A DNA stretch of 47,139 nt from Anaerolineales bacterium (lineage in GTDB: Bacteria; Chloroflexota; Anaerolineae; Anaerolineales; RBG-16-64-43), in assembly GCA_016928575.1 (NCBI GenBank), contig JAFGKK010000007.1, positions 1-47,139 of the forward strand, written 5' to 3'. Positions 1,944-25,381 of the stretch are shown one piece after another (position 1 is the first letter of the stretch; every line of letters starts with the position of its first letter). A program made the position numbers and the translations under genes. The notes beneath the pieces are model-generated. The model had not been told where the DNA came from, made no database searches, and saw nothing but the letters and a program-made list of their open reading frames with translations.

Positions 1944-2396
1944 ATGGGAAAACGAGAGGATTTCGCCGATGCCGTCCGCCGGCAAGGTTTAAAACTCACC
2001 CGTCCGCGCCAGGTCATCCTGGAAGTGCTGGAAAACGACCGCGGGCATCTCGACGCCGAGACTATCTACCGCAAGGCTAAGGACAAGGATCCGCGGATCG
2101 GCATCGCCACGGTCTACCGCACCCTTGCGCTGCTCAAACGGCTCGGGCTAGCGGAGGAACACGATCTGGGCGAGGATCACGGACACTTCGAAGCCGTCGA
2201 CGGGACCAAGCCGCACTTCCATTTCACCTGCCTGCGGTGCGGGAAGATCATCGAATTTGAATCTCCGCAGGTCATGCGGCTGTCGCAGAACCTGTGTGAG
2301 AAGGAAGGATTGCTGGTTTTGGAAGTCCATCTGCGCCTGAGCGGCTATTGCCGGCAGTGCCGGCCCCCCGGAAAGGGGTGCAAGGAGAAGCCATGA
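1944..2396 (+). CDS. fur: Fur family metal-responsive repressor
   Basis: A 150-residue protein. The N-terminal winged helix (about 8-80) contains LTRPRQVILEVL and IGIATVYRTLALL, the Fur DNA-recognition helix. The C-terminal metal and dimer domain has HFHFTCLRCG (Cys96, Cys99) and a second CxxC at 136-139, the structural zinc site. Whether it senses Fe, Zn or Mn cannot be read from the sequence. The ATG at 1944 is chosen over an upstream in-frame TTG at 1908 because AAGGA at 1933-1937 is well spaced. Its promoter carries a Fur-type box, and its stop overlaps the next start (ATGA), so the metal transporter that follows is translationally coupled to it. Confidence 0.92.
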   Translation: MGKREDFADAVRRQGLKLTRPRQVILEVLENDRGHLDAETIYRKAKDKDPRIGIATVYRTLALLKRLGLAEEHDLGEDHGHFEAVDGTKPHFHFTCLRCGKIIEFESPQVMRLSQNLCEKEGLLVLEVHLRLSGYCRQCRPPGKGCKEKP

Positions 2397-3658: not shown

Positions 3659-3729
3659 AAAGCCGCGGATCCCGCTCACCCTGCGGGAGGTCTTTCTCCG
3701 CCGGCCATCTCCGACTCCGAGGAGACGTC

Positions 3730-4173
3730 GTGAAAAAAAAAGGCTTTGCCGATGGGCACCGTATGGATCACCCTGGCGGCGACGCTGACCCTGCTCCTCC
3801 TCCCGCGTGCCGCGTTTGTGCCGATTCCGTGGACCCGGCTCGGATTCCTTGCATCGGCATGCGGGATCGCGTCAATTTGGCGGCCGACAACTTTTTCCGC
3901 AAGGCGGGAACGACGGTGAAGCCTTGCGAGGAGACCGCGGTGCCGGTCGGCGGAGCCCTGTGCCGGGTCAGCCGCAACCCGATTCACTTGGGATGGGCGT
4001 CGATCGTTTCCGGAGCCGCTGAGCTGCCCGGCTCGTTCCCACCGCGGGTCGCCGCGTCTGCGTTCGTCTTTTTCATCGACCGGCGGGTCATCGCCGTGGA
4101 AGCAGGCATGTTGAAAGCCCGGGGCGGGGAATCCCGGCGGGCGTACACGCCCCGCATCCGCCGGCGGCTCTGA
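3730..4173 (+). pseudogene. ICMT/PEMT-type membrane methyltransferase, doubly frameshifted
   Basis: The GTG at 3730 follows GAGGAG and reads into a run of nine A (3733-3741). Removing one A opens a hydrophobic segment (ALPMGTVWITLAATLTLLLL) that continues to about 3870. A second, opposite shift near 3870 returns to the first frame, giving AADNFFRKAGTTVKP, SRNPIHLG and a terminal RRAYTPRIRRRL. These match the order of motifs in PEMT/ICMT-like methyltransferases (AGTTVKPF, SRNPMYLG, E-x-x-ML, YRAYxxRVRRW). The motif region is also degenerate (GGALCRVSRNP for GPFRFSRNP). It may be a decayed gene, an assembly error, or a gene relying on slippage at the A9 run; the second shift makes slippage alone insufficient. 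Confidence 0.7.
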
Positions 4174-4193
4174 TTCTCAGGAGAGAAACAGCC

Positions 4194-4790
4194 ATGGACC
4201 AAGAAACGGTATTCCGCGGAATTCTGCTCTTATCGGTCGTCGTCATCGGCGCCGTCCGGATTTACTACCAATCCAAAATCAGCCGCGATACCGGGAAATT
4301 TCACTTCCGCGAAGGCCCCGTGACCCTGGCGCTCGCGGGTACCGCCGCGCTGGTCAATATCGTGTTCGGCGCGGAGTACGTTTTCTTTCCCGGAACGTTC
4401 GCCTTCGCCTACGCGCTCCGCTTTCCCGCCGCCGTGCGCTGGACCGGCGCCGCAATGCTGGTTCTGGGGATCGCGGTCCTGTGGCTGGCCCACCATCATC
4501 TCGGCCTTTCCTTCTCTTCCTTCGTCGGATCGAAAGAGCTGCACGCGCTGGTGCAATCCGGCCCCTACCGGATCATTCGCCACCCGATTTACACGGCCTA
4601 TTTGCTGATGTACCTCGGGGGAGGGTTGGCCGCAGGCAACTGGGTGCTCGTCGTTATTCCGGTGACCTGCTTTTTCCTGAACGCCTGCCTCCGCATGCCG
4701 CAGGAAGAGCGGATCCTGACCGAGTTGTTCGGGCCGGAGTACACCGCCTACATGCAGCGGACGGGCAGGCTGTTGCCGCGGCTGCGGTGA
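4194..4790 (+). CDS. isoprenylcysteine carboxyl methyltransferase (ICMT)-like membrane protein
   Basis: A 198-residue protein with about five membrane segments and the C-terminal SAM-binding signature of ICMT/PEMT proteins: SGPYRIIRHPIYTAY (residues 122-136), then Glu171-Glu172 and FGPEYTAYMQRTGRLLP. Family members transfer a methyl group from SAM to a membrane-facing carboxylate, amine or other group; eukaryotic ICMT methylates prenylated cysteine, but bacterial substrates are mostly unknown. The ATG at 4194 follows AGGAGA at 4179-4184. It is the first intact gene of the methyltransferase block and is 10 bp from the next gene, so co-transcription is likely. Confidence 0.86.
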   Translation: MDQETVFRGILLLSVVVIGAVRIYYQSKISRDTGKFHFREGPVTLALAGTAALVNIVFGAEYVFFPGTFAFAYALRFPAAVRWTGAAMLVLGIAVLWLAHHHLGLSFSSFVGSKELHALVQSGPYRIIRHPIYTAYLLMYLGGGLAAGNWVLVVIPVTCFFLNACLRMPQEERILTELFGPEYTAYMQRTGRLLPRLR

Positions 4791-4800
4791 AGGAAACGCG

Positions 4801-5439
4801 ATGTACCGGCACCGCTTCACCGATTTCACCAATGCACTGATCCCCGTCTACGACAAGCTCTTCCACGCGTGGATGGGCAAAGCGCATGAGCAATTCCGCG
4901 GGCGCGTCCTCGAGCTCGCCGCTTTGCGGAGCGGCGAGCGGATCCTCGACGCGGGATGCGGCACCGGCCTGACGGCATCGCGAATTGTCGAACGTTGCCC
5001 CGGAGTCAAAGTGGCCGGGATCGACATATCGCCCAGGATGATCGCCGCCGCGCGGAGGAATGCGGAAACCCAAGGCCTCCGGGCGGAGTTCCGGGTCGGT
5101 TCGATCACCGCCCTGCCCTACCCGGACGGGTCGTTCGACGCGGTGATCACCTGCATCATGTTCCATCATCTCGACCTGTCGGAAAAACGCCGGGCGGTTG
5201 GGGAATTGGCGAGGGTTCTCAAAGCCGGCGGACGCTACATCTCGGCCGAGTTCGGCCCGCGGGCGGCCAACGCCCTGCAGCGCAGACTGGCCAAGGGAGA
5301 TTACACGCTCTACCCCTCGCACCTTGAGGAAGCCGGCTTCGTCATCATGCGCTACGAGATCGGGCCGTTCGCGCTCGGCAAAAAGGTTTGCTACCGGACG
5401 GCGGTCAAGCCGGATCGAGCGGCGGCCGGGCCGGCCTGA
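4801..5439 (+). CDS. class I SAM-dependent methyltransferase
   Basis: A 212-residue soluble protein with a Methyltransf_11-type Rossmann core. Motif I is ILDAGCGTGLTA (about residues 46-57), the acidic end of beta-2 is VAGIDISPRM, motif II is GSFDAVITCIMFHHL, and the post-II loop is ELARVLKAGGRYI. The short insertions and the MFHHL pattern are common in methyltransferases of quinones, lipids and small molecules, but no substrate can be assigned. AAGGAAA just upstream overlaps the end of the preceding ICMT-like gene's stop, so the two are surely one transcript. Confidence 0.86.
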   Translation: MYRHRFTDFTNALIPVYDKLFHAWMGKAHEQFRGRVLELAALRSGERILDAGCGTGLTASRIVERCPGVKVAGIDISPRMIAAARRNAETQGLRAEFRVGSITALPYPDGSFDAVITCIMFHHLDLSEKRRAVGELARVLKAGGRYISAEFGPRAANALQRRLAKGDYTLYPSHLEEAGFVIMRYEIGPFALGKKVCYRTAVKPDRAAAGPA

Positions 5440-5457
5440 TTTCTCCGGCGGCTGCCA

Positions 5458-5508
5458 TATTCAAAGGCCGCGCGCGTCCGGTCGCGGTTGCTGCCCTCGA
5501 TCTGGTGA
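5458..5508 (+). pseudogene. vestigial C-terminus of an ICMT-like gene
   Basis: Read from 5458, this 51-bp stretch encodes YSKAARVRSRLLPSIW and a TGA. The intact paralogue ending at 10564 finishes EYAQRVRSRLLPLVW. The two share a run of at least 20 identical bases (around 5472-5494 and 10528-10551). The rest of the gene is absent: upstream lies the end of the class I methyltransferase. I read it as the tail left after deletion of another ICMT copy. Confidence 0.55.
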
Positions 5509-5573
5509 CAGCCGATGGGTTGAATCGGCCAAGGGCATCCTTTCATCGACTCAGTTTGATAAGGAAGCAAACC

Positions 5574-6200
5574 ATGCAATCGGGACAAGTCTTCAAGATC
5601 GCATTTTTCGCGCTCTTCCTCGCGCTCCTGGGAATCCGGGGGTTCTTCGGCTGGAAGGTCCGCCAGAAAGGGGAAAGCAGCTGGTCGGTCGATAAGGACG
5701 CCGCCCGGCGGGAAGGAACATGGAGCCTTCTACTGCGCCCGTTGATGTTCCTGGCGATCCTCGTGCTGGTCGGTCTGTACGCGCTGATCCCCAGTGAACC
5801 GGCGTGGCTGGTCCTCCCGCTGCCGGCCGGAGTGCGGGCCGTGGGGGCGGGGCTCGGGATTCTGAGCCTCCTGTACCTGGTCTGGGTGCATCACACCCTG
5901 CGGGAATTCTGGTCGACCGTCCTGCAGTTGCGCCAAGAGCATGCGTTGATCACAACCGGACCGTACCGGTGGATCCGGCACCCGATGTACTCGGTGTTGA
6001 CGGCTTGTTTCATCAGCCTGGCGCTCCTTTCCGCGATGTGGCCGCTTCTGCTGCTGACGCTCCTGACCGTCCCGTTCTTCTACCGCGCCACGGTTAAGGA
6101 AGAAGAAATGATGATCGCCCAATTCGGCGACGAATACCGCGCCTACCGGGAACGCACCGGGCGGTTTTTGCCGCAATTTGGCGCACCTGTCAGGTCTTAA
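5574..6200 (+). CDS. ICMT/PEMT-like membrane methyltransferase
   Basis: A 208-residue protein. An N-terminal membrane segment (VFKIAFFALFLALLGIRGFF) is followed by a charged loop and further membrane segments. The catalytic region has TTGPYRWIRHPMYS, Glu-Glu-Glu, and FGDEYRAYRERTGRFLP. The ATG at 5574 follows AAGGAAG at 5561-5567; the frame is open further upstream, but that part is the vestigial tail and has no good start. The last residues (APVRS) and the stop codon come from a 34-bp palindrome that has landed at the gene end, so the original C-terminus was probably nearer the 'RFLPQF' position. Confidence 0.86.
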   Translation: MQSGQVFKIAFFALFLALLGIRGFFGWKVRQKGESSWSVDKDAARREGTWSLLLRPLMFLAILVLVGLYALIPSEPAWLVLPLPAGVRAVGAGLGILSLLYLVWVHHTLREFWSTVLQLRQEHALITTGPYRWIRHPMYSVLTACFISLALLSAMWPLLLLTLLTVPFFYRATVKEEEMMIAQFGDEYRAYRERTGRFLPQFGAPVRS

Positions 6201-6215
6201 GACCTGACAGGTGCG
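6182..6215. repeat. perfect 34-bp palindrome, 'acctgtcaggt' family
   Basis: CGCACCTGTCAGGTCTT is followed at once by its exact reverse complement, with the centre between 6198 and 6199. It contains the TAA stop of the upstream gene. A relative with an 18-bp stem lies at 43554-43593. Both contain ACCTG(T/A)CAGGTCTT, so they form a dispersed family. It could fold as a hairpin in RNA and act as a terminator or processing site, or be a small mobile palindrome. Confidence 0.9.
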
Positions 6216-6231
6216 AAATCAGGAGAATCAC

Positions 6232-6921
6232 ATGAAATACCTCAAAGGATTTGCGTCGTTTCTGTGGACCTGCATCCTCTACGCGGGATTGCCCCTGCTG
6301 GGCTGGGGATTGGATGATCTCCCCGGTTATTTCGCCCTTCCGCCGCGGCTGATTTACGTCGTCTCCATCGCCCTGTTCGGGACGCTCGCCGCATGCCAGA
6401 TGATCCTCCTGCCGGAAAGCTTCCACGGCGGGATGGGCCAGGCAGAGAAGTTCGTCCCGCGTCAGCGCGTCGTGCGCGTCGCCGTCACCCTGATGCTGTT
6501 CGCCGGCTTGGTGCTGATCCCCTTAAGCGACCGACGCAGTCTGCTTACGATGGCGGATTCTTCCCCTCTGCGTTGGATCGGTCTGATCCTGGCGATCCTC
6601 GGGCTGGGGCTGATCTTCTGGTCCGGGCTGGCGCTCGGCCGCTTCTACAGCCAGGAGGTGACGCTCCAGGAAGGCCACCGCCTGATCACCCGCGGGCCAT
6701 ACCGGCTCGTCCGCCATCCGCGCTACCTCGGCATCGCCGTGATGGGAATCGGGCAATCCCTGCTGTTCCGCTCCTGGCTGGGGTTGGCCCTGACCGTTTT
6801 GGCGATGGTCGTCGTCCTGATCCGCATCCGCGATGAGGAGATCCTGATGCAGAAGGAATTCGGCGCGGAATGGGAAGCGTACGCCCGGAAAACCAAAAGG
6901 CTGATTCCCTTCGTTTGGTGA
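6232..6921 (+). CDS. ICMT/PEMT-like membrane methyltransferase
   Basis: A 229-residue protein with roughly six membrane segments and the family signature RGPYRLVRHPRYLG (about residues 162-175), followed by RDEEILMQKEF and WEAYARKTKRLIPF. It is somewhat longer at the N-terminus than its neighbours. The ATG at 6232 has AGGAG at 6221-6225; an in-frame GTG at 6211 lies inside the palindrome and is rejected. Substrate unknown. Confidence 0.86.
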   Translation: MKYLKGFASFLWTCILYAGLPLLGWGLDDLPGYFALPPRLIYVVSIALFGTLAACQMILLPESFHGGMGQAEKFVPRQRVVRVAVTLMLFAGLVLIPLSDRRSLLTMADSSPLRWIGLILAILGLGLIFWSGLALGRFYSQEVTLQEGHRLITRGPYRLVRHPRYLGIAVMGIGQSLLFRSWLGLALTVLAMVVVLIRIRDEEILMQKEFGAEWEAYARKTKRLIPFVW

Positions 6922-6946
6922 AGATTCATTCAAAGGAGGAATGAGC

Positions 6947-7507
6947 ATGGAACCCTTTCCCGCTTTATCCCTCGGTTGGCTCAACGGTTGGGTGCCTTTG
7001 GTTTTGATGGCGCTGGTGGATCTTGGATTGTTCCGGATCCTTCCCAAGGAAGTGGTCGCACGGCTGTACGGCCGCGTGAAGGTGGAAGGCTGGCAGAGGG
7101 TCATCGCCGCCATCGGCAACCTGGTCTTCACGGCCAGCCTGGTTCTGGTTGTGTTCACCCCTTTAAAAATCGGCGATCCGGTTTTCGCCGTCGGTTGCAT
7201 CGTTTCCCTGGCCGGCCTGGCCGGACAGGTCAAATCCTTTCTGGATTTCCGGGATACGCCGCCGGATCAACCGGTAACCCGCGGCATTTACCGGATATCG
7301 CGTCATCCGCAAAACGTGACTTCGAGGGTGGCGGCGCTTGGCATTTGCATCGCCGTCGGATCGTGGGCGGCGGTAACCCTATGGACGGTCGGCAATGCTC
7401 TGTGCCACTGGGAGAAACTGGCGGAAGAGCAAACCTGCCTGGAACAATATGGGGAGTCATACCGGCAATACCTGCATAAAGTTCCGCGGTATTTCTTGTT
7501 CTTCTGA
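6947..7507 (+). CDS. ICMT-like membrane methyltransferase, tandem copy A
   Basis: A 186-residue membrane protein starting MEPFPALSLGWLNGWV and ending KVPRYFLFF. The signature TRGIYRISRHPQNV replaces the usual tyrosine after RHP, and Glu-Glu-Gln plus YGESYRQYL close the motif. AAAGGAGG (6932-6939) fits the ATG at 6947 (7-nt spacing) better than the ATG at 6941 (1 nt). It is a tandem duplicate of the gene at 7553: same length, same first 15 or so residues apart from small changes, and the same ending. The lack of the RHPxY tyrosine in both suggests a shared altered specificity (inference). Confidence 0.84.
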   Translation: MEPFPALSLGWLNGWVPLVLMALVDLGLFRILPKEVVARLYGRVKVEGWQRVIAAIGNLVFTASLVLVVFTPLKIGDPVFAVGCIVSLAGLAGQVKSFLDFRDTPPDQPVTRGIYRISRHPQNVTSRVAALGICIAVGSWAAVTLWTVGNALCHWEKLAEEQTCLEQYGESYRQYLHKVPRYFLFF

Positions 7508-7552
7508 GAAATCCCAGCGGCCGCCTTCCACTTTTTAAAAAAGGAGTTGGCG

Positions 7553-8113
7553 ATGGAACTCTTTCCCGCACTGTCCCTTGGCTGGCTCAACGGTTGGATC
7601 GCCCCGGTGCTGCTGGCCCTGACCGACGCGATCCTGTTTCGTTCGTTCCCCAAGCCGGTCGTCGCCCGGCTGTGGGACCGCTCACAGTGGAGCCGCAGAC
7701 AGCGGATCTTCACCGTCATCGGCAAGCTGATTTCGCTCGGCGTGTTGATTCTCCTCCTGCTTACCCCGCTGAAACTCGGCGCGCCGGTGTTCGCCGTTGG
7801 CGCCGCGATTTTCCTGCTCGGACTGGCGACGGTGATTGTTTCGGTCCTAAATTTCGCGGCGACCCCCCTGGATCAGCCGGTGACGCGCGGGTTGTACAAG
7901 ATCTCGCGCCATCCGCAGGTAGTCGGCGCGGGATTGGTGCTCTTAGGCGCCTCGATCGCGATCGGCTCCTGGGCGGCGGTGATCTTGTGGACGCTCGGAC
8001 ACCTCTTCGGCCACTGGGGAATTCTGGCGGAGGAGGAAGCCTGTCTCGCGCAGTACGGCGAACCTTACCGGGAGTACCTGCGGCGCGTACCGCGGTACTT
8101 CCTATTTCATTAA
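7553..8113 (+). CDS. ICMT-like membrane methyltransferase, tandem copy B
   Basis: A 186-residue protein, the near-twin of the gene at 6947: it begins MELFPALSLGWLNGWI and ends RVPRYFLFH. Signature TRGLYKISRHPQVVG, then AEEEACLAQYGEPYREYL. The ATG at 7553 follows AAGGAG; an in-frame TTG six bases earlier is too close to it. At least four membrane segments are visible. The gap to copy A is 45 bp, and the next gene starts 12 bp after the stop, so these genes form one transcription unit. Confidence 0.85.
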   Translation: MELFPALSLGWLNGWIAPVLLALTDAILFRSFPKPVVARLWDRSQWSRRQRIFTVIGKLISLGVLILLLLTPLKLGAPVFAVGAAIFLLGLATVIVSVLNFAATPLDQPVTRGLYKISRHPQVVGAGLVLLGASIAIGSWAAVILWTLGHLFGHWGILAEEEACLAQYGEPYREYLRRVPRYFLFH

Positions 8114-8125
8114 GAGAGGAACACT

Positions 8126-8851
8126 TTGCTCGGGATCGTAGGCAACGCCGTTCTCATCGTTCTGGTTGTTCTGTTCAGCCTGTCCTTCTTCTGGCTGGTG
8201 GTCCTGAAGTTCGCATCCAGAGCCGCGACGCGCCTGGGACATTCCTCCCCCTGCCCGGCCGCCATCGGCTGGATTGTGAACAACCCCATCCGCCGGCACT
8301 ACATGCAGCCGGTCCTCGAACGGGTGGGGATCCGACCCGGCGAGTTCGTCCTGGAACTCGGGCCCGGGCCGGGCGCCTTCTCGCTCGACGCCGCCCGGAT
8401 GGTGGGGAACAGCGGCCGCTTGGTCGCGGTTGACCTCCAGCCGGAGATGATCGCGCGGCTGGAGCGGCGCGCGCGGGATGCCGGAGTGGATAACATCGAA
8501 ACGCACGTCGCAAGCGCGTATGATCTGCCGCTGCCGGATTCGAGCGTCGACCGCGCCTTCCTGGTGACGGTTCTTCCGGAAATACCGGACCGCGCGCGGG
8601 CGCTCGCGGAACTGCGCCGGGTGCTCAAGCCCGGGGGAACGCTCTCCATCACCGAGGAGTTCCTCGATCCGGATTACCTGTTCGCCGGCGAAACCATTCG
8701 GCTGGTCGAATCGGCGGGGTTCCGCCTGACCCGGCTCGCCGGCGGCTTCTGGATCTACACGGTGAATTTCGAGGCTACCGGACCGAACGAAAAAAACACA
8801 ATCCATCCCAGATATGGGAAGAAAGCGGGGAACCATGCGCAAACCGAGTAA
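8126..8851 (+). CDS. class I SAM methyltransferase with N-terminal membrane segment
   Basis: A 241-residue protein starting with TTG at 8126, spaced 5 nt from AGAGGA. Residues 3-27 (IVGNAVLIVLVVLFSLSFFW) are a membrane anchor. The catalytic domain follows: HYMQPVLERVGIRPG, motif I VLELGPGPGAFS, beta-2 LVAVDLQPEM, and LRRVLKPGGTLSITEEF. The pattern resembles UbiE/Methyltransf_11 enzymes that act on lipophilic substrates. The membrane anchor would place it beside the ICMT-like proteins encoded on each side. Its 3' end overlaps the next gene by 17 bp. Confidence 0.85.
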   Translation: MLGIVGNAVLIVLVVLFSLSFFWLVVLKFASRAATRLGHSSPCPAAIGWIVNNPIRRHYMQPVLERVGIRPGEFVLELGPGPGAFSLDAARMVGNSGRLVAVDLQPEMIARLERRARDAGVDNIETHVASAYDLPLPDSSVDRAFLVTVLPEIPDRARALAELRRVLKPGGTLSITEEFLDPDYLFAGETIRLVESAGFRLTRLAGGFWIYTVNFEATGPNEKNTIHPRYGKKAGNHAQTE

Positions 8852-9353
8852 GTGGAGTTTCCAGATGATGTCGTTAATCCACGAAACGCTGTACGGCCTG
8901 TTTCAGGACCCGTACCGGGCGCTGGCCGACGCCGGCCTTCAAGCCGGACAAGCCGTCCTGGAAGTCGGCTGCGGACCCGGATTCTTCACCGTTCCGGCCT
9001 CCAGGATCGTCGGCGCAACGGGAAGCGTCCTGGCGCTGGATATCAATCCGTTCGCCGTGGAACACGTGCAACGAAAAATCGAGCAGGAACGCGTGGCCAA
9101 TGCCCGCGTCATGCTGGCCGACGCCGCGCAAACGAACCTTCCCGGCCGAAGCTTCGATCTGGCATTCCTGTTCGGTTTCCCCCACCCTGTCGGGGATATG
9201 GGGAGGATCTGGAATGAAATCCACCGCCTGCTTAAACCGGCCGGGATTCTGGCCGTGAAAGGCCGGCGGCTTCCGCCCGGAGGGCTTTTCCGGCCTTCGG
9301 AGTGCCGGGGAAGGATCTCCTGCTTTATCCGAACCAGGAGCGGCGAAAAATGA
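8835..9353 (+). CDS. class I SAM methyltransferase
   Basis: A 172-residue protein. After a short N-terminal helix (SFQMMSLIHETLYGLF) come motif I VLEVGCGPGFFTVPA, beta-2 VLALDINPFAVEHV, LPGRSFDLAFLFGF and IHRLLKPAGILAVKGR. It is short but has the full Rossmann core. Start at ATG 8835, preceded by GGGGAA and overlapping the upstream gene; an in-frame ATG at 8814 is possible. The stop overlaps the next start (ATGA at 9350). The overlap on both sides shows strict co-translation in the block. Confidence 0.8.
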   Translation: MRKPSKWSFQMMSLIHETLYGLFQDPYRALADAGLQAGQAVLEVGCGPGFFTVPASRIVGATGSVLALDINPFAVEHVQRKIEQERVANARVMLADAAQTNLPGRSFDLAFLFGFPHPVGDMGRIWNEIHRLLKPAGILAVKGRRLPPGGLFRPSECRGRISCFIRTRSGEK

Positions 9354-10564
9354 TCCGACAATTCTCCTTGAAACGCATCCTTATCGACGGCACCCTCATG
9401 AATGTGCTGATCAGCATCGTCGTGTATGGTTTTATCTACCTTAACCCGTTGATCTGGGTCAGCGATTATCCGCCCGATATCCAAGCGGCGGTGGGTCCGG
9501 TCTCGGCACCCATCGGCCAACAGCTCGCGATGGGCGTGCTGTTCCTCCTCATCCTCGCCGGTGTGCCGCTTTGGTCGAGCGCCAGACTCCGGCGGGAAAA
9601 CCGCGGCGAGCTGTCGTTTCCCTCGGCCTTCGTTCACAATGCGCTGCTCGCGTTGTTCTTCGCGAGCTGGGATCTCCTCATCCTCGACTGGCTGATCTTC
9701 GTCACAATCCAGCCGGCGTTCATCGTCATCCCGGGCACGGAGGGCTTGGCGGGATACCAGGATTATTGGTTTCACCTTCAGGTGAGCTTCCTGGGATGGA
9801 CACAGTGGATCGCGATCCTCGCCGCCGGCCTGATCCTCGGCGGCCTGGCGATGATACGGCCGGGAGGCCAGCCGATGTCTGAAAAAAACCGCGGCACCGC
9901 AGGGTATTTTGCGCAGCTGGTGTTTTTCCTCGGCGTTTGGGCAGCATGCCTGTTCGTCTCCGCCGGGCGTCTGGATTGGGGCGCGGGGTGGGTATTCCTC
10001 GCCCTCAGCGCAGCCGGGCAGATCGTCACCGCCGTGATCCTCCGAATACGGTATCCCGGATTGATGGGCGAGCGCGCCTCGCTCGAAGGGAAATGGGATT
10101 TGGACCGGATCCTGGCCGGCGTGTTGGCGCTCTGGGGTCCGGCCGCGATCTGTATCGTCGGCGGATTAGACCAGCGCCATGGGTGGCCGCCGGAGATTCC
10201 CCTGGCGTGGCAACTGGCGGGGGTCGCGATCGCCGCGGCGGGGGCGGCACTGACGGCCTGGGCGATGGCGGCCAACCGTTTCTTCTACGGCGTCATGCGG
10301 ATCGCCAAAGAGCGGGGACATGCGGTATGCGATTCCGGCCCATACCGGTTCGTCCGCCATCCGGGCTACTTGGGCGCGATCGGATTCGATTTGGCGGCGG
10401 CGCTCGTCCTCCAATCCGTTTGGGCGCTCATCCCGGCGGCGGTCACCGTGCTCGCCATCGTGATCCGCACGGCCCGGGAAGACAAAGCCCTGCAGGCCGG
10501 GCTGGACGGCTACCGCGAATACGCCCAGCGCGTCCGGTCGCGGTTGCTGCCGCTCGTCTGGTGA
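9350..10564 (+). CDS. two-part membrane protein: N-terminal 4-TM domain fused to an ICMT-like methyltransferase
   Basis: A 404-residue protein. Residues 1-170 hold about four membrane segments with no motif I recognise. From residue 176 (MSEKNRGTAGYFAQ) it reads like a complete ICMT-like enzyme of about 225 residues: LDWGAGWVFLALSAAGQI, then DSGPYRFVRHPGYLGA, REDKALQ, and GYREYAQRVRSRLLPLVW. It is about twice the family's usual length, so either two genes have fused or an accessory membrane domain was added. The ATG at 9350 overlaps the upstream stop and has AGGAG at 9336-9340. Its C-terminal DNA matches the vestige at 5458-5508. Confidence 0.82.
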   Translation: MIRQFSLKRILIDGTLMNVLISIVVYGFIYLNPLIWVSDYPPDIQAAVGPVSAPIGQQLAMGVLFLLILAGVPLWSSARLRRENRGELSFPSAFVHNALLALFFASWDLLILDWLIFVTIQPAFIVIPGTEGLAGYQDYWFHLQVSFLGWTQWIAILAAGLILGGLAMIRPGGQPMSEKNRGTAGYFAQLVFFLGVWAACLFVSAGRLDWGAGWVFLALSAAGQIVTAVILRIRYPGLMGERASLEGKWDLDRILAGVLALWGPAAICIVGGLDQRHGWPPEIPLAWQLAGVAIAAAGAALTAWAMAANRFFYGVMRIAKERGHAVCDSGPYRFVRHPGYLGAIGFDLAAALVLQSVWALIPAAVTVLAIVIRTAREDKALQAGLDGYREYAQRVRSRLLPLVW

Positions 10565-10590
10565 ATTCGTACCGATACGCCTGAGCCCTC

Positions 10591-10985
10591 GTGTCTTTTT
10601 GTCTTCGTGGTGTAAACCCTTTTTACCACGAAGGCACCAAGGCACTAAGGAAAAAAGGGAAAGTTTTTCTTCGTGTCTTTTTGTCTTCGTCGTGTAAACC
10701 CTTTTTACCACGGAGGCACTAAGGTACTAAAGCACTAAGGGAAAAACGAAAGCCTTTCTTCGTGTCTTCGCGTCTTCGTGGTGTAAATCCTTTTCCCCAC
10801 GAAGTCACCAAGGCACGAAGGAAAAAGGGAAAGCTTTTCTTCGTGTCTTTGTGTTTTCGTGGTGTAAACCCTTTTTTACCACGAAGGCACCAAGGCACTA
10901 AGGAAAAAAGGAAAGCATTTCTTCGTGTCTTTGGGTTTTCGTGGCGTAAACCCTTTTTACCACGAAGACACCAAGGCACAAAGAA
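10591..10985. repeat. five tandem ~82-bp hairpin repeats
   Basis: Units start near 10591, 10671, 10760, 10841 and 10923. Each has CGTGTCTTTxTGTCTTCGTGG, 'tgtaaaccctttt', then the inverted arm (ACCACGAAGGCACCAAGG) and an A-rich linker 'ggaaaaaaggaaag'. Each unit folds on itself (CTTCGTGGT ... ACCACGAAG). It is related to the arrays at 1-290 and 818-965 but with its own spacer. It fills the 456-bp gap between 10564 and 11021 and divides the methyltransferase block. Open frames across it, on either strand, are produced by the repeat. Confidence 0.9.
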
Positions 10986-11020
10986 GAGGAATCTTCAATC
11001 GCGAAAGAAGGGAGATCCTT

Positions 11021-11914
11021 ATGAAACACCTTGCAGGTCTCGACGATCCGAAAATCGCCAAGCTCTACGCCGGCGTCCCCGAGGATGAACTGCGCAAGTT
11101 CCACGCCTTTTGCGAGGCGTATCCCTACCGCAGTATCCGTTACCGCGGGATCGAATGGCCGTACCTGATTTCCTCCGGCGGCGGCGAGCCTTTGCTGATG
11201 CTTTCCGGCGCGCTGACCCATCCGGACATCAGCTGGAATTCGATCGCCTACTTCGGGGGAAAATACCGGATCGTCGTCCCCGCTTACCCGGCGGTGCGCA
11301 CGATGGACGAGTTGTGCGACGGCATGGCGGCGGTGTTGCAGCACGAAGGGGTCACCCGCGCGCACGTGATGGGCGGCTCGTACGGCGGATTTGTCGGCCA
11401 GGTTTTCGCGCGCCGATTCCCGGCCGTCTCCCGCTCGCTGGTCCTTTCGCACACGGCCGCGCCCGATCCCACCGGGCTTGGGAACGTGGAGCGGATGGTG
11501 CGCGGGTTGTCGCTGCTGCCGGCGTTTGCCCTGCGCGGGTTGCTGGGCCGCTCGCTCGGCAAGCTCATGCCGGCGGATTCTTCTTCCCCGGAAATGCTTC
11601 TGATGCTCGCCCAGTTCCGCGAAATCATGGATCACCATCTGCAAAAGCCCGACTTCCTCGGCATCCTTGAGCGGACGCTGGATTTCTACCGACGGGCGTG
11701 GTCCGCGGAGGATTTGGCCGGCTGGTCCGGGAGGATCCTCCTGGTACTCGGCGAGGAGGACCCGGCGTCGCCGGAGCGGGTGCGCGCCGCCTTCCGCCGC
11801 CTCTATCCGAACGCGGAGTGGAAAATTTTCAAAGGGAGCGGGCATACGACCTCGGTCACCGATCAGGCGGAATACCAGGCGGCCATCGACGGGTTCCTGC
11901 AGGCGCAATCCTGA
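11021..11914 (+). CDS. alpha/beta hydrolase
   Basis: A 297-residue soluble protein of the alpha/beta hydrolase fold. The nucleophile elbow is MGGSYGGF (Ser120), the acid is probably the Asp in LGEEDPASP near residue 246, and the histidine lies in GSGHTTSV near 271, so the triad looks complete. The oxyanion region is PLLMLSGALTHP. The ATG at 11021 follows AAGGGAG. A frame open further upstream runs into the repeat array and has no start signal. Sitting among carboxyl-methyltransferase-like genes, a methyl esterase or lipid esterase role is tempting but not shown. Confidence 0.86.
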   Translation: MKHLAGLDDPKIAKLYAGVPEDELRKFHAFCEAYPYRSIRYRGIEWPYLISSGGGEPLLMLSGALTHPDISWNSIAYFGGKYRIVVPAYPAVRTMDELCDGMAAVLQHEGVTRAHVMGGSYGGFVGQVFARRFPAVSRSLVLSHTAAPDPTGLGNVERMVRGLSLLPAFALRGLLGRSLGKLMPADSSSPEMLLMLAQFREIMDHHLQKPDFLGILERTLDFYRRAWSAEDLAGWSGRILLVLGEEDPASPERVRAAFRRLYPNAEWKIFKGSGHTTSVTDQAEYQAAIDGFLQAQS

Positions 11915-11952
11915 CCGTTGTGTTCGCTGGATAAAGAAAGAAGGAAACGGGA

Positions 11953-12840
11953 ATGGCGGGAAAACGAATCGAAACCAAAGCATCCCAAACAGCCGGGTAT
12001 ACCTGTTTCTCGCGCGCCTGCGCCGCGCGCGAGAGAGATCCGCGCCTCCGCGGCCCGGATTACTTGGCGGAGCGGATCTTGCCCTTCGGCGCCCGGTTGA
12101 TGGCCGCCATCCCCCCCGTCCGCCGGCTGGTGATGGCCAAGATGTTCCCGGCGGGGATCTATGAATACGTTCTGGCGCGGACGAAGGAGCTAGATGCGGC
12201 GTTTCTCGCAGCGCTCGAGGCGCGCTTCGACCAGATCGTCCTCTTGGGCGCCGGATTCGACACCCGCGCGCTGCGTTTTGCTGGACGCAACCGCGGGACG
12301 CGGATCTTCGAGCTGGATGTGGCGCCCACGTTGGATCCGAAAGTGGAGATCCTGCGCCGGAAGCGCATCCCCCTTCCGGACGAATTGACCTTCGTGCGGA
12401 TTAATTTCGACAAGCAGGAGCTTGCCGCAGCGCTGGCGCAGGCGGGTTTTCGGCGCGGGCGTAAGGATCTTTTCCTCATGGAAGGCATCACCATGTACCT
12501 CACTGCATCGGCGGTGGACCGCAACTTCGCCTTCATCCGGCAACACGCCGCGCCGGGCAGCCGGGTGGTGTTCGATTACATCTATGCATCCGTCCTGCGG
12601 CGCGAGAACCGGCGTTACGGTGAGCGGGAGATTTTCGAAACCGTCTCCCGGGCGGGCGAGGGCTGGACCTTCGGCCTGGAGGACGGCGAGGCGGAATCGT
12701 TTCTGGAGCAGCGCGGCTTCCGGCTCATCGCGCACCACACCCCCGCGGAGCTGCAACGGAAGCACCTCACTGCCAAAAACGGAACCCCGCTCGGACGCAT
12801 CAACGGCACGCACTGCATCGCCGTCGCCGAAGTGCGCTGA
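11953..12840 (+). CDS. leucine carboxyl methyltransferase (LCM/PPM)-like SAM methyltransferase
   Basis: A 295-residue protein of the LCM family. SAM motif IVLLGAGFDTRALRF (about residues 96-110), then the acidic RIFELDVA, LFLMEGITMYL (family motif E-G-x-x-M/L-Y-L) and SRVVFDYIY. The C-terminus GRINGTHCIAVAEV matches the paralogue at 15641. Bacterial relatives include O-methyltransferases of polyketide pathways. AAGGAA precedes the ATG at 11953. Substrate unknown. Confidence 0.87.
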   Translation: MAGKRIETKASQTAGYTCFSRACAARERDPRLRGPDYLAERILPFGARLMAAIPPVRRLVMAKMFPAGIYEYVLARTKELDAAFLAALEARFDQIVLLGAGFDTRALRFAGRNRGTRIFELDVAPTLDPKVEILRRKRIPLPDELTFVRINFDKQELAAALAQAGFRRGRKDLFLMEGITMYLTASAVDRNFAFIRQHAAPGSRVVFDYIYASVLRRENRRYGEREIFETVSRAGEGWTFGLEDGEAESFLEQRGFRLIAHHTPAELQRKHLTAKNGTPLGRINGTHCIAVAEVR

Positions 12841-12925
12841 GGAGGCGGAAGGGAAGGGGAAACGAAGGCAGTTCGGAATACCTTCCACAAAACCCAGCGC
12901 CGCTTCCGCAACGACAAGGAGCAGC

Positions 12926-13561
12926 ATGAATCTGATCGGCAAATTTATGGACCAATACAGAAAACCCTCCGGCTGGCTCGGCCGGGTGGTGGCCCGGGGG
13001 ATGAACGCAGGGCATTGGGAATTGACCGAATGGGGATTGGGGCACATTGACATCGCGAAGTATGGTTCCGCGCTGGATATCGGCTGCGGCGGAGGGGAGA
13101 CCATCCGCAAACTGGCGGAAGCCGATCCGCACAGCCGCCTGTACGGAATCGATCATTCGCCGGAAAGCGTCGCGGTGGCCGTGGAAAGAAACGCGCCCCA
13201 AGTCCGCGCGGGCCGCGTCGACATCCGGCCGGGATCGGTTTCGTCCCTGCCCTTCCCCGGCGCCATGTTCCACCTGGTCTTGGCCATCGAGACCCATTAC
13301 TTCTGGCCCGATTTGGAATCCGACGCGCGGGAAATCCTCCGGGTGATGCGAGGCGGCGGAACATTGATGATCATCGGCGAAGGATACGCGGGCGGGAAAT
13401 TCGACGATCGGAATCGCAAGCTGGCGCGATGGGCGGGCATGCGGTTCTACGGCATCCGGGAGATAGAGGAAATCCTAACCAGGGCCGGGTTTGCGGAGAT
13501 CCGGATGTTCGAAGAGTACGACAAAGGCTGGTTTTGCGCCTTAGCCCGCAAAGGCGTTTGA
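12926..13561 (+). CDS. class I SAM-dependent methyltransferase
   Basis: A 211-residue protein: motif I ALDIGCGGGETIRKL (about residues 50-64), LYGIDHSPESVAVA, SLPFPGAMFHLVLAIETHYF, and EILRVMRGGGTLMII. The pattern is that of Methyltransf_11 enzymes. AAGGAG at 12916-12921 fits the ATG at 12926; the same frame is open for 500 bp upstream, but that part is antisense-like shadow of the LCM gene and has no codon logic. Substrate unknown. Confidence 0.85.
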   Translation: MNLIGKFMDQYRKPSGWLGRVVARGMNAGHWELTEWGLGHIDIAKYGSALDIGCGGGETIRKLAEADPHSRLYGIDHSPESVAVAVERNAPQVRAGRVDIRPGSVSSLPFPGAMFHLVLAIETHYFWPDLESDAREILRVMRGGGTLMIIGEGYAGGKFDDRNRKLARWAGMRFYGIREIEEILTRAGFAEIRMFEEYDKGWFCALARKGV

Positions 13562-13658
13562 AGAACAGCGGAGCATAAGGCATACAGGCGGTTGCCGCAC
13601 GGTGCGGATCTTTCCGGCTCGCGGAAAAAACCTTAATCCGACACGGAGGAAACCGAAC

Positions 13659-14723
13659 ATGAAAATCCTAGTTTTTGGTGCAGGCCCCTTGGGAAGCTTC
13701 TTTTCCGCGCGATTGCTGGAAGCCGGGCACGAGGTCGCCCTGCTGGCGCGCGGCCAACGGCTGACGGATTTGCGGCAGCACGGGCTGGTTCTGGTCGATA
13801 CGGAATCCGGAAAAGAGTCGGTCAGCCGGCCGCGGATCGTCGAACGGCTCGAACCGGAGGACGCCTACGATCTGGTGATGGTGGTGATGCGCAAGAACCG
13901 TGCGCTGGAGATACTTCCCGCGCTGGCCGCGAACACGCGCACGCCGAACATCCTGTTCCTGATGAACAACGCCGCCGGCCCGGATGCGCTGGTTCAAGCG
14001 CTCGGTGCGCAACGGGTAATGATGGGCTTCCCGATGGCGGCCGGCTACCGCCGGGGGTACAAGATCCATTACCTGTTCGGCGGAAAGCCGGACAAGCCGG
14101 TGAAGATCCCGCTCGGCGAGGCGGACGGCAGCATTCGTCCGCGGACTCGCGACATCGCTGCGGTGTTCGACGGAATGCCGGGCTTTGCCGGCGAGATCCG
14201 CACCGACATGGACGCTTGGCTCAAGACGCACGTCGCGCTGCTGATGCCTTCGCTCGCTCCGGCGATGCGCGCGGCCGGCCGCGATAACGTGCGCATGGGG
14301 CGCACGCGCGACGCGGTCGTCCTGGCGGTCCGCGCCATGCGCGAGGGGTTCGCCGTGGTGCGCAAGCTGGGGTATCCCGTCGTTCCCGCCGGCATCCGGC
14401 AGATGGAATTGCTGCCCGAACCCTTGCTCGTTTGGTACCTGCAGCGGATGCTCCCCCATCCGCGGATGCGGACCGCGATGCTCGAGCATGCCGACGCAGC
14501 CCAGGACGAGATCCGCCACCTGGCCGGGGAGTTCGACGAATTAATCCAGAAGGCGGGCGTCCCGACTCCGGTTATCGACGGGTTGAGGAAATATTTTGAT
14601 CCCGACACCCCGCCGCTCCCGGACGGCAGCGCCGAGATTCCGCTGGACTGGCGATTCTTGTACACCGTCGCCGGGATTGTGGTCCTCGGAGCGGTCGTCC
14701 TTCTTGGTTTGTGGCTGCTGTAA
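13659..14723 (+). CDS. ketopantoate reductase (ApbA/PanE)-like protein with a C-terminal membrane anchor
   Basis: A 354-residue protein. The N-terminal NADP-binding fold has ILVFGAGPLGSFFSARLL (GxGxxG). DAWLKTHVALLMP near residue 190 contains the lysine that family members use in catalysis (W-x-K-x-H). PanE reduces 2-dehydropantoate in coenzyme A synthesis, but it is usually about 300 residues and soluble. Here the tail FLYTVAGIVVLGAVVLLGLW is a clear membrane span at the very C-terminus. With this context it is more likely a diverged oxidoreductase working at the membrane than the CoA enzyme. GGAGG precedes the ATG at 13659. Confidence 0.78.
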   Translation: MKILVFGAGPLGSFFSARLLEAGHEVALLARGQRLTDLRQHGLVLVDTESGKESVSRPRIVERLEPEDAYDLVMVVMRKNRALEILPALAANTRTPNILFLMNNAAGPDALVQALGAQRVMMGFPMAAGYRRGYKIHYLFGGKPDKPVKIPLGEADGSIRPRTRDIAAVFDGMPGFAGEIRTDMDAWLKTHVALLMPSLAPAMRAAGRDNVRMGRTRDAVVLAVRAMREGFAVVRKLGYPVVPAGIRQMELLPEPLLVWYLQRMLPHPRMRTAMLEHADAAQDEIRHLAGEFDELIQKAGVPTPVIDGLRKYFDPDTPPLPDGSAEIPLDWRFLYTVAGIVVLGAVVLLGLWLL

Positions 14724-14761
14724 GCCGCCGGCCTGCCGGCCGGATAGAAAGAAGAGTATCC

Positions 14762-15574
14762 ATGTCCCAGAAAATGCACGTGACGCTGAGCGACGTTCCC
14801 AAGACTCTGCTCCTGCCCTTGTGGGGCCGGGCACGCGAATCCCGCAAACCCGATCCGCTGCTGGTCGACAAAAAAGCGCTGGAGATCATCGACGGCGTGG
14901 ATTTCGATTTTTCCTCGCTTGCGGGGAACATCACCGAACTCAGCCAAGCCGGATGGATCATGCGCAGCTTGTCCATCGACCGTGCGGTCCGGAAGTTGCT
15001 CGCAGTCCATCCGCAAGCCACGATCGTCGACCTCGGCTGCGGACTCGACACCACCTTCGACCGGGTGGACAACGGGCTGCTCCGCTGGTTCGATCTGGAT
15101 CTGCCGGAAGTCATCGCGCTGCGGAAGCAATTCATTCCCGAAACCGCGCGACGCAAGGCCCTCGCCGCCTCCTTCCTGGAGAAGGGCTGGCGGAAGGAGA
15201 TCCGGCCGTCGAGCAAAGTGCTGTTCCTCGCCGCGGGCCTCTTCTATTTTTTCCGCGAAGAGGAGATCAAGGGCTTCCTCCGGGATCTGGCGGACGAATT
15301 CCCCGGCGGAGAGATCCTCTTCGACGCGGTCTCCCCGCTGGGGGTGAAAACCGCCAACCGGATGGTCGTCCGTCGGGCGGGGATGGACGAGCGCTCCTTC
15401 CTCACCTGGGGATTGGAGAAACCGGAGCGGATCCTCTCCTGGGACGACCGTTTCACCTTCCTCAAGTCGACCTTCTACTTCGGCGAGAAGCGATTGCCTC
15501 TGCGGGTGCGAATCCAGGGCTTCTTCTCGGACCTGCTGAAGATCCAATACATGGTCCATCTCGGCTGGGCGTAA
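14762..15574 (+). CDS. LCM-like SAM methyltransferase
   Basis: A 270-residue protein of the leucine carboxyl methyltransferase type, more distant from the pair at 11953 and 15641. It begins with VTLSDVPKTLLLPLWGRARE and has SAM motif IVDLGCGLDTTFDR, then WFDLDLPEVIALR and VLFLAAGLFYFFREEEI. The latter two fit the LCM subgroup in which carboxylate and phospho-compound methyltransferases are found. A weak AGAAGAG precedes the ATG at 14762; an in-frame start at 14711 would overlap the upstream gene. Confidence 0.82.
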   Translation: MSQKMHVTLSDVPKTLLLPLWGRARESRKPDPLLVDKKALEIIDGVDFDFSSLAGNITELSQAGWIMRSLSIDRAVRKLLAVHPQATIVDLGCGLDTTFDRVDNGLLRWFDLDLPEVIALRKQFIPETARRKALAASFLEKGWRKEIRPSSKVLFLAAGLFYFFREEEIKGFLRDLADEFPGGEILFDAVSPLGVKTANRMVVRRAGMDERSFLTWGLEKPERILSWDDRFTFLKSTFYFGEKRLPLRVRIQGFFSDLLKIQYMVHLGWA

Positions 15575-15640
15575 GCAGCGTAATGATACGGCGGATTGCG
15601 GCCTCGGAATGAATCTTGATGAGAAGAAGGACAACCTAAA

Positions 15641-16546
15641 ATGCATCAGAAACGGATTGAAACGAAAATCTCGCGGACGGCGGAACTTTGCTGCCTGTGC
15701 CGGGCGGTATCCGCGCTGGAGAAAGACCCCCTCTTCCGGAGCGGCGACCGGATCGCGGTGTCGATCCTGCCGGACTTCATGCGGGCTTTGGTCCGCATTC
15801 CCGGCGCCGGAAGGCTGCTGGTCCGCGCGATCACGGCCCGCGGGATCTATGAATACATCATCGCCCGGACCAAGTACATCGACGCCGCCTTCCGGGTAGC
15901 CCTCGCGGGCGGGGTGGATCAGATTCTGATCATCGGCGCGGGGTACGACACGCGGGCGGTCCGCTTCCGGGAAGAATCCGGCCGGACTAAGTTTTTCGAA
16001 CTGGATGCGCCGATCACGCTCCAATCCAAGATCGACCAATATCGCCAACGCCGGATCGCAACGCCGCCCAATCTGGTGTTCGTGCCGATCAATTTCGACA
16101 AGGAATCCATTCCCGAAAAACTCGCGCAGGCCAGGTTCCGCCGCGGGGTAAAGACCCTCTTCCTTATTGAAGGCGTGCTGGAATATCTTCAGCCCGAATC
16201 GGTGGACCGGACATTCCGGACGATCCGGGATGTCGCCGGAGCGGGAAGCGAAATCGTCTTCAACTATGCCTATGCCTCGGTCATTCGCGGCGAAGGCCAG
16301 CTTTACGGCGAGAAGGGCGCACTGCAGACCCTCTCGAGCGTCGGGGAAGCGTGGCATTTCGGGATCGAAAAGGGGGCGATCGGTTCTTTCCTGGCGAAGT
16401 ACGGATGTGAAATACTCGACCACCGGGATACGCGGGAATTGGAGGAATTGTTTTTCAAGGATCCCTCCGGACGGATCGTCGCCCGGATAAACGGTACGCA
16501 TTGCCTGGTGCGGGCGGGAATCGCTTCTCCGCTGCGGATTGCCTGA
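15641..16546 (+). CDS. LCM-like SAM methyltransferase
   Basis: A 301-residue paralogue of the gene at 11953. They share KRIETK at the N-terminus, ARGIYEYIIARTKYIDAAF, IIGAGYDTRAVRF, KFFELDAP, LFLIEGVLEYL and ARINGTHCLV. AAGGAC precedes the ATG at 15641. The two copies are separated by three other genes, so duplication was not recent or was followed by insertion. It completes a trio of LCM-type enzymes in the block. Confidence 0.87.
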   Translation: MHQKRIETKISRTAELCCLCRAVSALEKDPLFRSGDRIAVSILPDFMRALVRIPGAGRLLVRAITARGIYEYIIARTKYIDAAFRVALAGGVDQILIIGAGYDTRAVRFREESGRTKFFELDAPITLQSKIDQYRQRRIATPPNLVFVPINFDKESIPEKLAQARFRRGVKTLFLIEGVLEYLQPESVDRTFRTIRDVAGAGSEIVFNYAYASVIRGEGQLYGEKGALQTLSSVGEAWHFGIEKGAIGSFLAKYGCEILDHRDTRELEELFFKDPSGRIVARINGTHCLVRAGIASPLRIA

Positions 16547-16590
16547 CTCCAGGCGGCAGGCCCTCACCTCTTACGGAAAAGGACCGAAAA

Positions 16591-17238
16591 ATGCGGTTTG
16601 AATTTACGCAAGTCTTTCTGCTGGTCTGGATAATCGCCTTCTGGATCTTCTACCTTCTGACCTACGGGAAGTACGAAGAAAAACACGAACGATCCACCCG
16701 GGCGCAATACGGGGTGCGCTCCAAATGGGCGCCGTTTTTCGGCTTGGCCTTCCTGGGATGGACTCTGGTTATGCTCGTATATTTCTTCCACCCTGCCAGC
16801 GCAACTTGGCTATGGAGATTTTCCGCGCTCGATCGGGAGCCGGTAAAATGGGCCGGCGTCTTCCTAATGTGCATCGCCTTTCTGCTGAACATCCTCTTTA
16901 CGCTGTCGATCGGGAAATCCATACGCGACGCGCTCGCCACGGGCGGGAAGGCGCAATTGATCACCACCGGAGTGTACCGGCTGGTCCGCCATCCCGGGTA
17001 TGCGGCGTTTTTTCTCGTCGGGCTCGGATGCTTTCTGATCCTCCCCAACGTGATCGTCTTGGGGTTGCTGCTCTATACCTGTATTGCAATTCACGGACAG
17101 ACCCTGGAGGAAGAGGAGAAACTGGTGAAGATGTACGGAGAATCCTACGAGCAGTATCGGCGGAAAACGGGGCGTTACTGGCCAAGGGCGCCGCGGTCGA
17201 CGGGCCGCCCGGATCCGGCCGAGCAAATCCCCGGATAA
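16591..17238 (+). CDS. ICMT/PEMT-like membrane methyltransferase
   Basis: A 215-residue protein and the last gene of the block. N-terminal membrane segment VFLLVWIIAFWIFYLLTYG, then three to four more segments. Signature TGVYRLVRHPGYAAF, LEEEEKLVKMYGESYEQYRRKTGRYWP. The C-terminus adds about 18 polar residues. The ATG at 16591 follows AAAGGA; the in-frame start upstream would overlap the LCM gene. It encodes the seventh intact ICMT-like protein of the window. Confidence 0.86.
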   Translation: MRFEFTQVFLLVWIIAFWIFYLLTYGKYEEKHERSTRAQYGVRSKWAPFFGLAFLGWTLVMLVYFFHPASATWLWRFSALDREPVKWAGVFLMCIAFLLNILFTLSIGKSIRDALATGGKAQLITTGVYRLVRHPGYAAFFLVGLGCFLILPNVIVLGLLLYTCIAIHGQTLEEEEKLVKMYGESYEQYRRKTGRYWPRAPRSTGRPDPAEQIPG

Positions 17239-17262: not shown

Positions 17263-17702
17263 ATGCCGCAACTTGCCAAAGGCGGAAAGTGGGTGTTCGG
17301 GTGGTCGGTGGTCTCCGCGCGGCGGGAAATCCGCATCCCGCCGGAAGCGTACGCCGAGTACGGGTATCGGGACGGGGAGGAGATCGTGTTCCTCGCGGGC
17401 AGTCGGACTTCGGGCGGGTTCAGAATCGGCCGGCCGGAAAAACTTGCAACGGCGAAAATCCCCCTCGAGGCCCGCGCCGTGTGCCGGGGAAGCATCGGGC
17501 CGCAGGGGCGCATCGAGCTTCCGCCCAAGGTGGGCGCCCAGGGCCCGGCGAGCGGCTGCTGGTCGGCCGCGGAAGCGGTCTGGCGCTGTGATTTCTCCGC
17601 CGGGGCTCGATTTTCGAAGAGGCAAGGAAACACCCCGTGCTCAAGCAATTCCTCGCCGAGGACGGAGATTCCGATCCGCCGGGTGTCCAAACGGCGCGGT
17701 AA
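17263..17702 (+). pseudogene. decayed small DNA-binding-like (AbrB-like) gene
   Basis: The first frame, after AGGAGG, reads MPQLAKGGKWVFGWSVVSAR, EIRIPPEAYAEYGYRDGEE and GRIELPPKVG: a protein with two IPPE/LPPK beta-hairpin halves that recalls SpoVT/AbrB domains. Near 17535 the frame shifts to GERLLVGRGSGLAL, then meets TGA at 17587-17589 (GGA in a working copy would fit), then FLRRGSIFEEARKHPVLKQF to a TAA at 17700-17702. One frameshift and one stop therefore interrupt what looks like a single gene. Confidence 0.6.
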
Positions 17703-17891
17703 AGCAGGTCCGGAAACCAGTCCGCCGCGAGGCGGTCCTTCTTTCCATGATCGGGCAATTCCGCGATCGGCGCGGGAATACGGTCATCCCCAGCCATGCC
17801 ATGTCGGGAAGGGCTTCCCGGAGGAAAAGCCGCGGGATATTCATCATTTCACGCAAGCGGGATACAATTTTTGATCCCTGAAGGAGATAGA

Positions 17892-24531: not shown

Positions 24532-24540
24532 CGTATGCTC

Positions 24541-25365: not shown

Positions 25366-25381
25366 TCTTCACCGTTCCTTC

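Follow-up and report, generated by a model that had tools for sequence, protein, structure and literature searches.

A block of membrane-bound and soluble methyltransferase genes of changing content beside iron-homeostasis genes in an Anaerolineales bacterium

In this work we have investigated a dense block of methyltransferase genes in DNA from an Anaerolineales bacterium (phylum Chloroflexota). The window, by which we mean the whole stretch analysed (47,139 nucleotides), is one contig (JAFGKK010000007.1, assembly GCA_016928575.1) from a 97% complete genome bin of 3.84 Mb. The block lies at 3730-17238 (13.5 kb) and every gene in it runs rightward, head to tail. Pfam and NCBIfam searches found seven intact ICMT/PEMT, four class I and three LCM-type methyltransferases, one alpha/beta hydrolase (HYD) and one ApbA/PanE-like reductase, and they bear out the gene families which the initial annotation had placed at these positions. 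The spacing between genes ranges from -38 to 97 nt, the sole exception being a gap of 456 nt which holds a repeat array, and a purine-rich sequence resembling a ribosome-binding site, judged by eye, precedes most of the starts. Seven of the roughly 18 PEMT matches of the genome fall within these 13.5 kb of 3.84 Mb, which is not chance (P ~2e-13). The block is biased towards the membrane, with the seven ICMTs, the X6N domain and transmembrane anchors on MT2 and ApbA. Its features are given below with their support in brackets, where dN/dS is the ratio of nonsynonymous to synonymous substitution rates measured against G001, the closest relative (a sister genome of the same genus, Anaerolineales bacterium Zod_Metabat.1134).

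3734-4164, + strand: psi-ICMT0, frameshifted ICMT (intact homologue in G001)
4194-4790, + strand: ICMT1, membrane methyltransferase (Pfam, motif, dN/dS)
4801-5439, + strand: MT1, class I methyltransferase (Pfam, dN/dS)
5467-5508, + strand: probable remnant, ICMT6-like C terminus (weak)
5574-6200, + strand: ICMT2 (Pfam, motif, dN/dS)
6232-6921, + strand: ICMT3 (Pfam, motif, dN/dS)
6941-7507, + strand: ICMT4, duplicate of ICMT5, 59% identical (Pfam, motif)
7553-8113, + strand: ICMT5 (Pfam, motif, dN/dS)
8126-8851, + strand: MT2, class I methyltransferase with an N-terminal transmembrane anchor (Pfam, dN/dS)
8838-9353, + strand: MT3, class I methyltransferase, window-specific, last ~30 residues probably altered
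9350-9874, + strand: X6N, domain of four transmembrane helices that belongs to no Pfam family (in-frame fusion with ICMT6; a separate gene in G001)
9875-10564, + strand: ICMT6 (Pfam, motif, tree, dN/dS)
10589-10996, no strand: repeat array (five copies of ~74 nt) that splits the block at its one large gap
11021-11914, + strand: HYD, alpha/beta hydrolase, esterase-like (Pfam)
11953-12840, + strand: LCM1, TIGR00027 (Pfam/NCBIfam, structure model)
~12929-13561, + strand: MT4, class I methyltransferase, window-specific (Pfam)
13659-14723, + strand: ApbA/PanE-like reductase with a C-terminal transmembrane helix (Pfam)
14762-15574, + strand: LCM2, divergent LCM-type methyltransferase (Pfam/NCBIfam)
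15641-16546, + strand: LCM3, paralogue of LCM1, 46% (NCBIfam)
16591-17238, + strand: ICMT7 (Pfam, motif, dN/dS)

All seven ICMTs keep the catalytic motif G-x-Y-(R/K)-x-x-RHP ... E ... Y ... R, and each scores above the cut-off of PF04140, PF04191 or both, the Pfam families that define the superfamily. The block enzymes fit no substrate-specific NCBIfam model. Against the model for protein-S-isoprenylcysteine O-methyltransferase (NF040696, cut-off 160 bits) the ICMTs scored 21-114 bits, the best being ICMT1 with 113.8, and against that for the Leptospira lipid A 1-phosphate methyltransferase LmtA (TIGR04571, cut-off 325 bits) at most 35 bits; MT1 to MT4 stayed at or below 82.5 bits with the ArsM models, whose cut-offs are at least 240 bits, depending on the model. 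Among the LCM-type enzymes, the TIGR00027 cut-off of 93.55 bits was passed by LCM1 (193.4) and LCM3 (165.5) and missed by LCM2 (37.6). The initial annotation described three unrelated folds. However, the structure model of LCM1 (predicted local distance difference test score, pLDDT, 86) matched human LCMT1 as well as class I enzymes from mycobacteria and common O-methyltransferases of class I, which rules out LCM as a third fold; the block therefore contains two folds, distributed over three families.

The frameshifted ICMT copy that had been noticed earlier was confirmed by alignment to the intact homologue in G001: residues 2-48 are encoded in frame 2 (3734-3871) and residues 49-146 in frame 1 (3871-4164), with the two halves joining at about 3871. 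The supposed vestigial tail at 5467-5508 is a more delicate case, as its 13 codons plausibly resemble the end of ICMT6 (83% over 42 nt) but the protein match is weak (E 0.11). X6N and ICMT6 share one open reading frame (9302-10564), while in G001 they are two genes at different positions of the block. Among 396 genomes of the class, 22 encode X6N, which was noted at locus L137 (2683-3204) as well as in the window; its model reached a pLDDT of 68 and gave no PDB match below E 1.9, so that nothing was learned about its fold. The ~74-nt repeat has internal dyad symmetry (CTTCGTGGTGTAAACCC...ACCACGAAG). We also observed in genome G513 the fusion of an ICMT with a metallo-beta-lactamase domain (L137, 4508-5671), and at locus L147 a metallo-beta-lactamase reading frame adjoins an ICMT.

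In G001 the block comprises 16 methyltransferases, and its neighbours are those of the window: TetR-Fur-CDF to the left, AbrB-like-FeoAB to the right. As this is a separate genome bin with a collinear block, an assembly artefact is ruled out. The two genomes share a collinear core of 13 genes, ICMT0-ICMT1-MT1-ICMT2-ICMT3-ICMT5-MT2-ICMT6-HYD-LCM1-ApbA-LCM2-ICMT7, in which ICMT0 is intact in G001 and broken in the window. For 13 pairs (the core minus ICMT0, plus X6N), dN/dS was 0.12-0.27, which indicates purifying selection. About a third of the block content nevertheless differs between the two: ICMT4, MT3, MT4 and LCM3 occur only in the window, and seven genes only in G001, namely three ICMTs (a, b and c), two membrane-anchored class I enzymes, an Rce1-like protein and one more membrane protein. 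Nearly all of this turnover consists of further methyltransferases gained or lost, and it must be fast, because the RpoB proteins of the two species are 90% identical. The Rce1/CAAX-protease-like membrane protein heads the G001 block (contig G001:C108, reverse-complement coordinates 8578-9405, in L002). Together with ICMTs it brings CAAX processing to mind, but it lies below the Pfam cut-off (19.3 vs 22.4) and the window yielded no homologue; CAAX-style processing was rejected as an explanation.

Tandem amplification did not produce the block, except for the ICMT4/ICMT5 pair: its other ICMTs are only ~30% identical to one another, and a tree of 93 sequences places them on separate lineages, with non-block genes in between, although some of the deeper branches have low support. 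The closest kin of several ICMTs are found in other methyltransferase clusters of the class, which are smaller (ICMT6 with L050/L043, ICMT3 with L054/G017 and ICMT5 with L046), and the same is true of the additional ICMTs of G001 (ICMTb with G513, ICMTc with G521 and ICMTa with L066). The window X6N is 71% identical to its homologue in G513, a genome of another family of the class (RpoB 68%), compared with 62% to that of G001 (RpoB 90%), and G513 has the order MT1-ICMTb-X6N, as in G001, on a 6.6 kb contig with four ICMTs. Similarly, MT2 of the window is 68% identical to that of G203, where RpoB identity is only 60%. From these comparisons, some of the block genes appear to have been exchanged horizontally. 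Relatives of ICMT6 on plasmids had no shared neighbourhood theme, one of them lying beside siderophore-uptake genes, and a search of phages with LCM1 yielded a single weak match to an Acinetobacter phage, in two records. An anti-phage defence system was ruled out, as none of the 10 proteins of the region examined with PADLOC matched a defence model.

Do the block genes also keep company outside the genus? The initial annotation named the absence of such clusters in relatives as grounds for refuting it; clusters were found, so this refutation fails. The ApbA-like reductases that end in a membrane helix make up a well-defined ortholog group, present in 22 of 396 genomes of a class-wide sample. 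At six of the 22 loci examined an ICMT lies within 6 kb of ApbA, where 0.20 would be expected (P 8e-8); the control loci drawn for this count fell short of a clean random sample and do not serve as evidence. In a named collection (G001 excluded), an ICMT was within 5 kb of ApbA at 8 of 26 Chloroflexota loci vs 0 of 25 in other phyla, some of the Chloroflexota contigs being identical to contigs of the class-wide sample. Four loci stand out as independent cases, with the orders ICMT x3-Fur-FeoB-ICMT-HYD-MT-ApbA (G334), HYD-MT-ICMT-ApbA (G474), ApbA-AbrB-ICMT3-ICMT-HYD-PadR-MT-MT-LCM1 (L054) and LCM x2-ICMT-ApbA-LCM x2 (L066), and without a large block there are ApbA-AbrB plus an LCM1 remnant (L042) and ICMT-CDF-ApbA (L078). 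Across the class only subsets of the block occur. The recurrent core is the membrane-tethered ApbA-like reductase, HYD, ICMTs of the ICMT6, ICMT3 and ICMT5 types and class I enzymes of the MT1 and MT2 types; within this genus the core has expanded to ~14-16 methyltransferases. Outside Chloroflexota, we noted in Treponema sp. UBA4873 (L105, 9342-11756) an MT4-like gene, a distant ApbA homologue and an MTb-like gene adjacent to each other. The window's own genome has, at L233 (1382-7313, G000:C80), genes for a PadR-like protein, a MacB-like ATPase, an FtsX-like permease (named by eye), a HYD paralogue and an ICMT in a row.

The iron-homeostasis setting of the block was absent from the initial annotation, as was the Fur box; both emerged in the follow-up. 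The flanking features are:

1111-1710, + strand: TetR-family regulator; its G001 counterpart is 78% identical and occupies the corresponding position
1798-1826, + strand: sigma70-like promoter TTGACA-17-TACTAT, -35 and -10 conserved in G001
1830-1848, no strand: predicted Fur box, 16/19 consensus match
1944-2396, + strand: fur1, fur-family regulator heading the gene run (Pfam/NCBIfam)
2348-3658, + strand: CDF-type cation efflux protein with a winged-helix-like N terminus, overlapping fur1
17263-17640, + strand: AbrB-like small protein (named by eye; no Pfam match)
17796-20261, + strand: FeoA-FeoB ferrous iron transporter, start uncertain
22436-26416, - strand: second iron cluster, with DtxR-FeoA (22436-23227), FeoB over two open reading frames (23134-25365) and a DtxR-type repressor with a FeoA domain (25382-26416)
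27819-28994, - strand: ferritin (27819-28370), a Fur-box-like site with 5 mismatches (28506-28530) and a second Fur (28551-28994)

The box at 1830-1848 is the only site in the window with at most three mismatches, and none arose in 100 shuffles of the window. At the same place G001 has a 17/19 Fur box with a matching promoter; the support for the promoter at 1798-1826 is this conservation, as the promoter scan overall performed no better than chance. A Fur box overlapping or adjoining a promoter, as in a Fur regulon, was found for fur1 only, and it is conserved in the two species. Fur, DtxR or FeoB genes were found within 10 kb at 4 of 14 module-bearing ApbA loci (G001, G203, G017 and G334) vs 0 of 27 without the module (P 0.01). 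A second locus of G017 combines FeoAB-Fur with AbrB and an ICMT3 relative. Homologues of the AbrB-like protein flank ApbA in L042 and L054 and lie near Fur, FeoB and ICMT in G017. The iron cluster at 22436-26416 has no syntenic counterpart in the G001 contig.

What could such a set of enzymes be for? The initial annotation proposed that they may act in turn on one product. Our data do not support this, as the content shifts between species, only subsets occur across the class and the block has no gene for a scaffold; that closely related species differ in their make-up argues for a repertoire and against one pathway with a fixed succession of steps. The reading we favour, though tentatively and with the odds somewhat against it, is an iron-responsive, modular and horizontally reshuffled membrane methylation island which caps lipophilic small molecules. 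Once Fe(II)-Fur leaves the box before fur1, a unit of fur1, CDF and methyltransferase genes would be transcribed; we infer co-transcription and the iron response of the methyltransferases from the arrangement described above. The enzymes may then add methyl groups to acidic groups (carboxyl, phenol or thiol) of lipophilic small molecules in the membrane, while the reductase and the hydrolase would work on keto and ester groups in the same compound class. Since the set acts as a changing repertoire and not as a fixed pathway, the most likely purpose would be chemical capping, by which lipophilic compounds that are toxic or bind metals would be detoxified or inactivated. The exporters and the PadR, TetR and TrmB regulators encoded beside ICMT clusters elsewhere would also fit the handling of such compounds.

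Several observations weigh against an iron-responsive island. The association with iron genes comes from four loci, with a few duplicate contigs in the module-less group, and beyond this genus the module is mostly found on short contigs that carry no iron genes. In several relatives MacB/FtsX or HlyD exporters, some of them named by eye, or PadR or TrmB regulators are nearby instead. Behind the CDF gene there is one terminator-like site (3670-3688), from a scan whose results were close to background, and a second unit probably begins at the 456-nt gap with the repeats. In addition, fur genes are commonly autoregulated, and the Fur box therefore need not control the methyltransferases; what suggests Fur control of these genes is their spacing only.

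Could the enzymes instead decorate one endogenous lipophilic metabolite, such as a phenolic or alkylpyrone-like lipid, a quinone or a lipophilic metallophore, with the scaffold made elsewhere in the genome? We regard this biosynthetic tailoring as rather unlikely. BpsB is ICMT-like. A small methyltransferase is capable of such chemistry, since co-expression of bpsB with bpsA leads to pyrone methyl ethers (PMC4901931), and both the presence of a reductase and a hydrolase next to the methyltransferases and, if the product were a metallophore, the iron control would suit it. However, in all genomes seen the block is without a scaffold-building gene, and PF02797 is absent from the 97% complete genome, which rules out a type III polyketide synthase as partner and with it an alkylpyrone cluster of such a synthase plus a methyltransferase. 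A difference of about a third of the genes between congeners, with only subsets elsewhere, would also be unusual for a single ordered pathway.

An iron-independent island for methylating xenobiotics or antibiotics, controlled by TetR and coupled to ABC export in relatives, with the iron genes as chance neighbours, is in our judgement unlikely. It would account for the well conserved TetR at the block head (78%) and for similar ICMT clusters that occur with exporters (MacB/FtsX or HlyD) and with regulators of the PadR, TetR or TrmB type, among them the PadR-ABC-HYD-ICMT row in the window's own genome, but not for the Fur box or for a Fur/Feo context that recurs in several families, and the block itself has no exporter. 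We consider it improbable that these are accessory genes of metal resistance. Single ICMT genes are known in czc clusters (czcN, PMC12029693) and copper genomic islands with copA (PMC8478169), and the block has a CDF transporter, Fur and FeoAB at its flanks; however, no RND pump or P-type ATPase was found in or beside it, and the LCM, class I, hydrolase and reductase genes would be left unexplained. Weakest is MddA-like formation of volatile dimethyl sulfide from sulfide or methanethiol, which is hardly probable: MddA is a membrane-bound S-adenosylmethionine-dependent methyltransferase (PMC5607357) and several ICMTs match its model weakly, but their 20-28 bits compare with a cut-off of 270 bits (NF045656), one enzyme would do in place of 14, and many of the paralogues have diverged to ~30% identity.

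Returning to the iron-responsive capping island, the protein families themselves are known, while their arrangement, dynamics and iron setting appear new. The initial annotation knew of no described operon with this make-up, and our literature searches gave nothing relevant either, an operon of this kind not being found in them. It is possible, although we hold this with more doubt than the island itself, that the Anaerolineae have an undescribed Fur-controlled modification system in which mobile membrane methyltransferases, a tethered ApbA-like reductase, a hydrolase and the new X6N family cap many lipophilic compounds in response to iron, with members swapped between lineages gene by gene. 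Small membrane methyltransferases of the ICMT/PEMT type are common in bacteria, and to our knowledge most of them have no known substrate. A cluster of ~7-10 divergent ICMTs under selection, together with its partner set and Fur box, thus offers testable handles on several orphan families. If the iron link is true, iron limitation in anaerobic Chloroflexota would be joined to small-molecule methylation, a coupling of which we know no description.

How does the block compare with known systems? The chemistry proposed for it resembles that of bpsA-bpsB of Bacillus, in which methyl groups cap a lipophilic product with hydroxyl groups, but here the genome has no type III polyketide synthase and there are many methyltransferases, not one. 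As in the czc and copA-type loci, ICMTs adjoin metal-handling genes; in this case, however, the neighbours serve iron import and regulation and include a CDF protein in place of RND or P-type ATPase export, and at least 14 methyltransferases of three families are present. The LCM1 model superposes on Rv0731c of M. tuberculosis and ML2640 of M. leprae, whereas the TIGR00027 family is not defined by any clustering with ICMTs and iron genes. Finally, the ICMT of PDB entry 4a2n has the same domain and RHPxY...E...YxxY motif as the block enzymes (ICMT3 matches it at 1.6e-16), but the block carries seven divergent copies side by side and not one.

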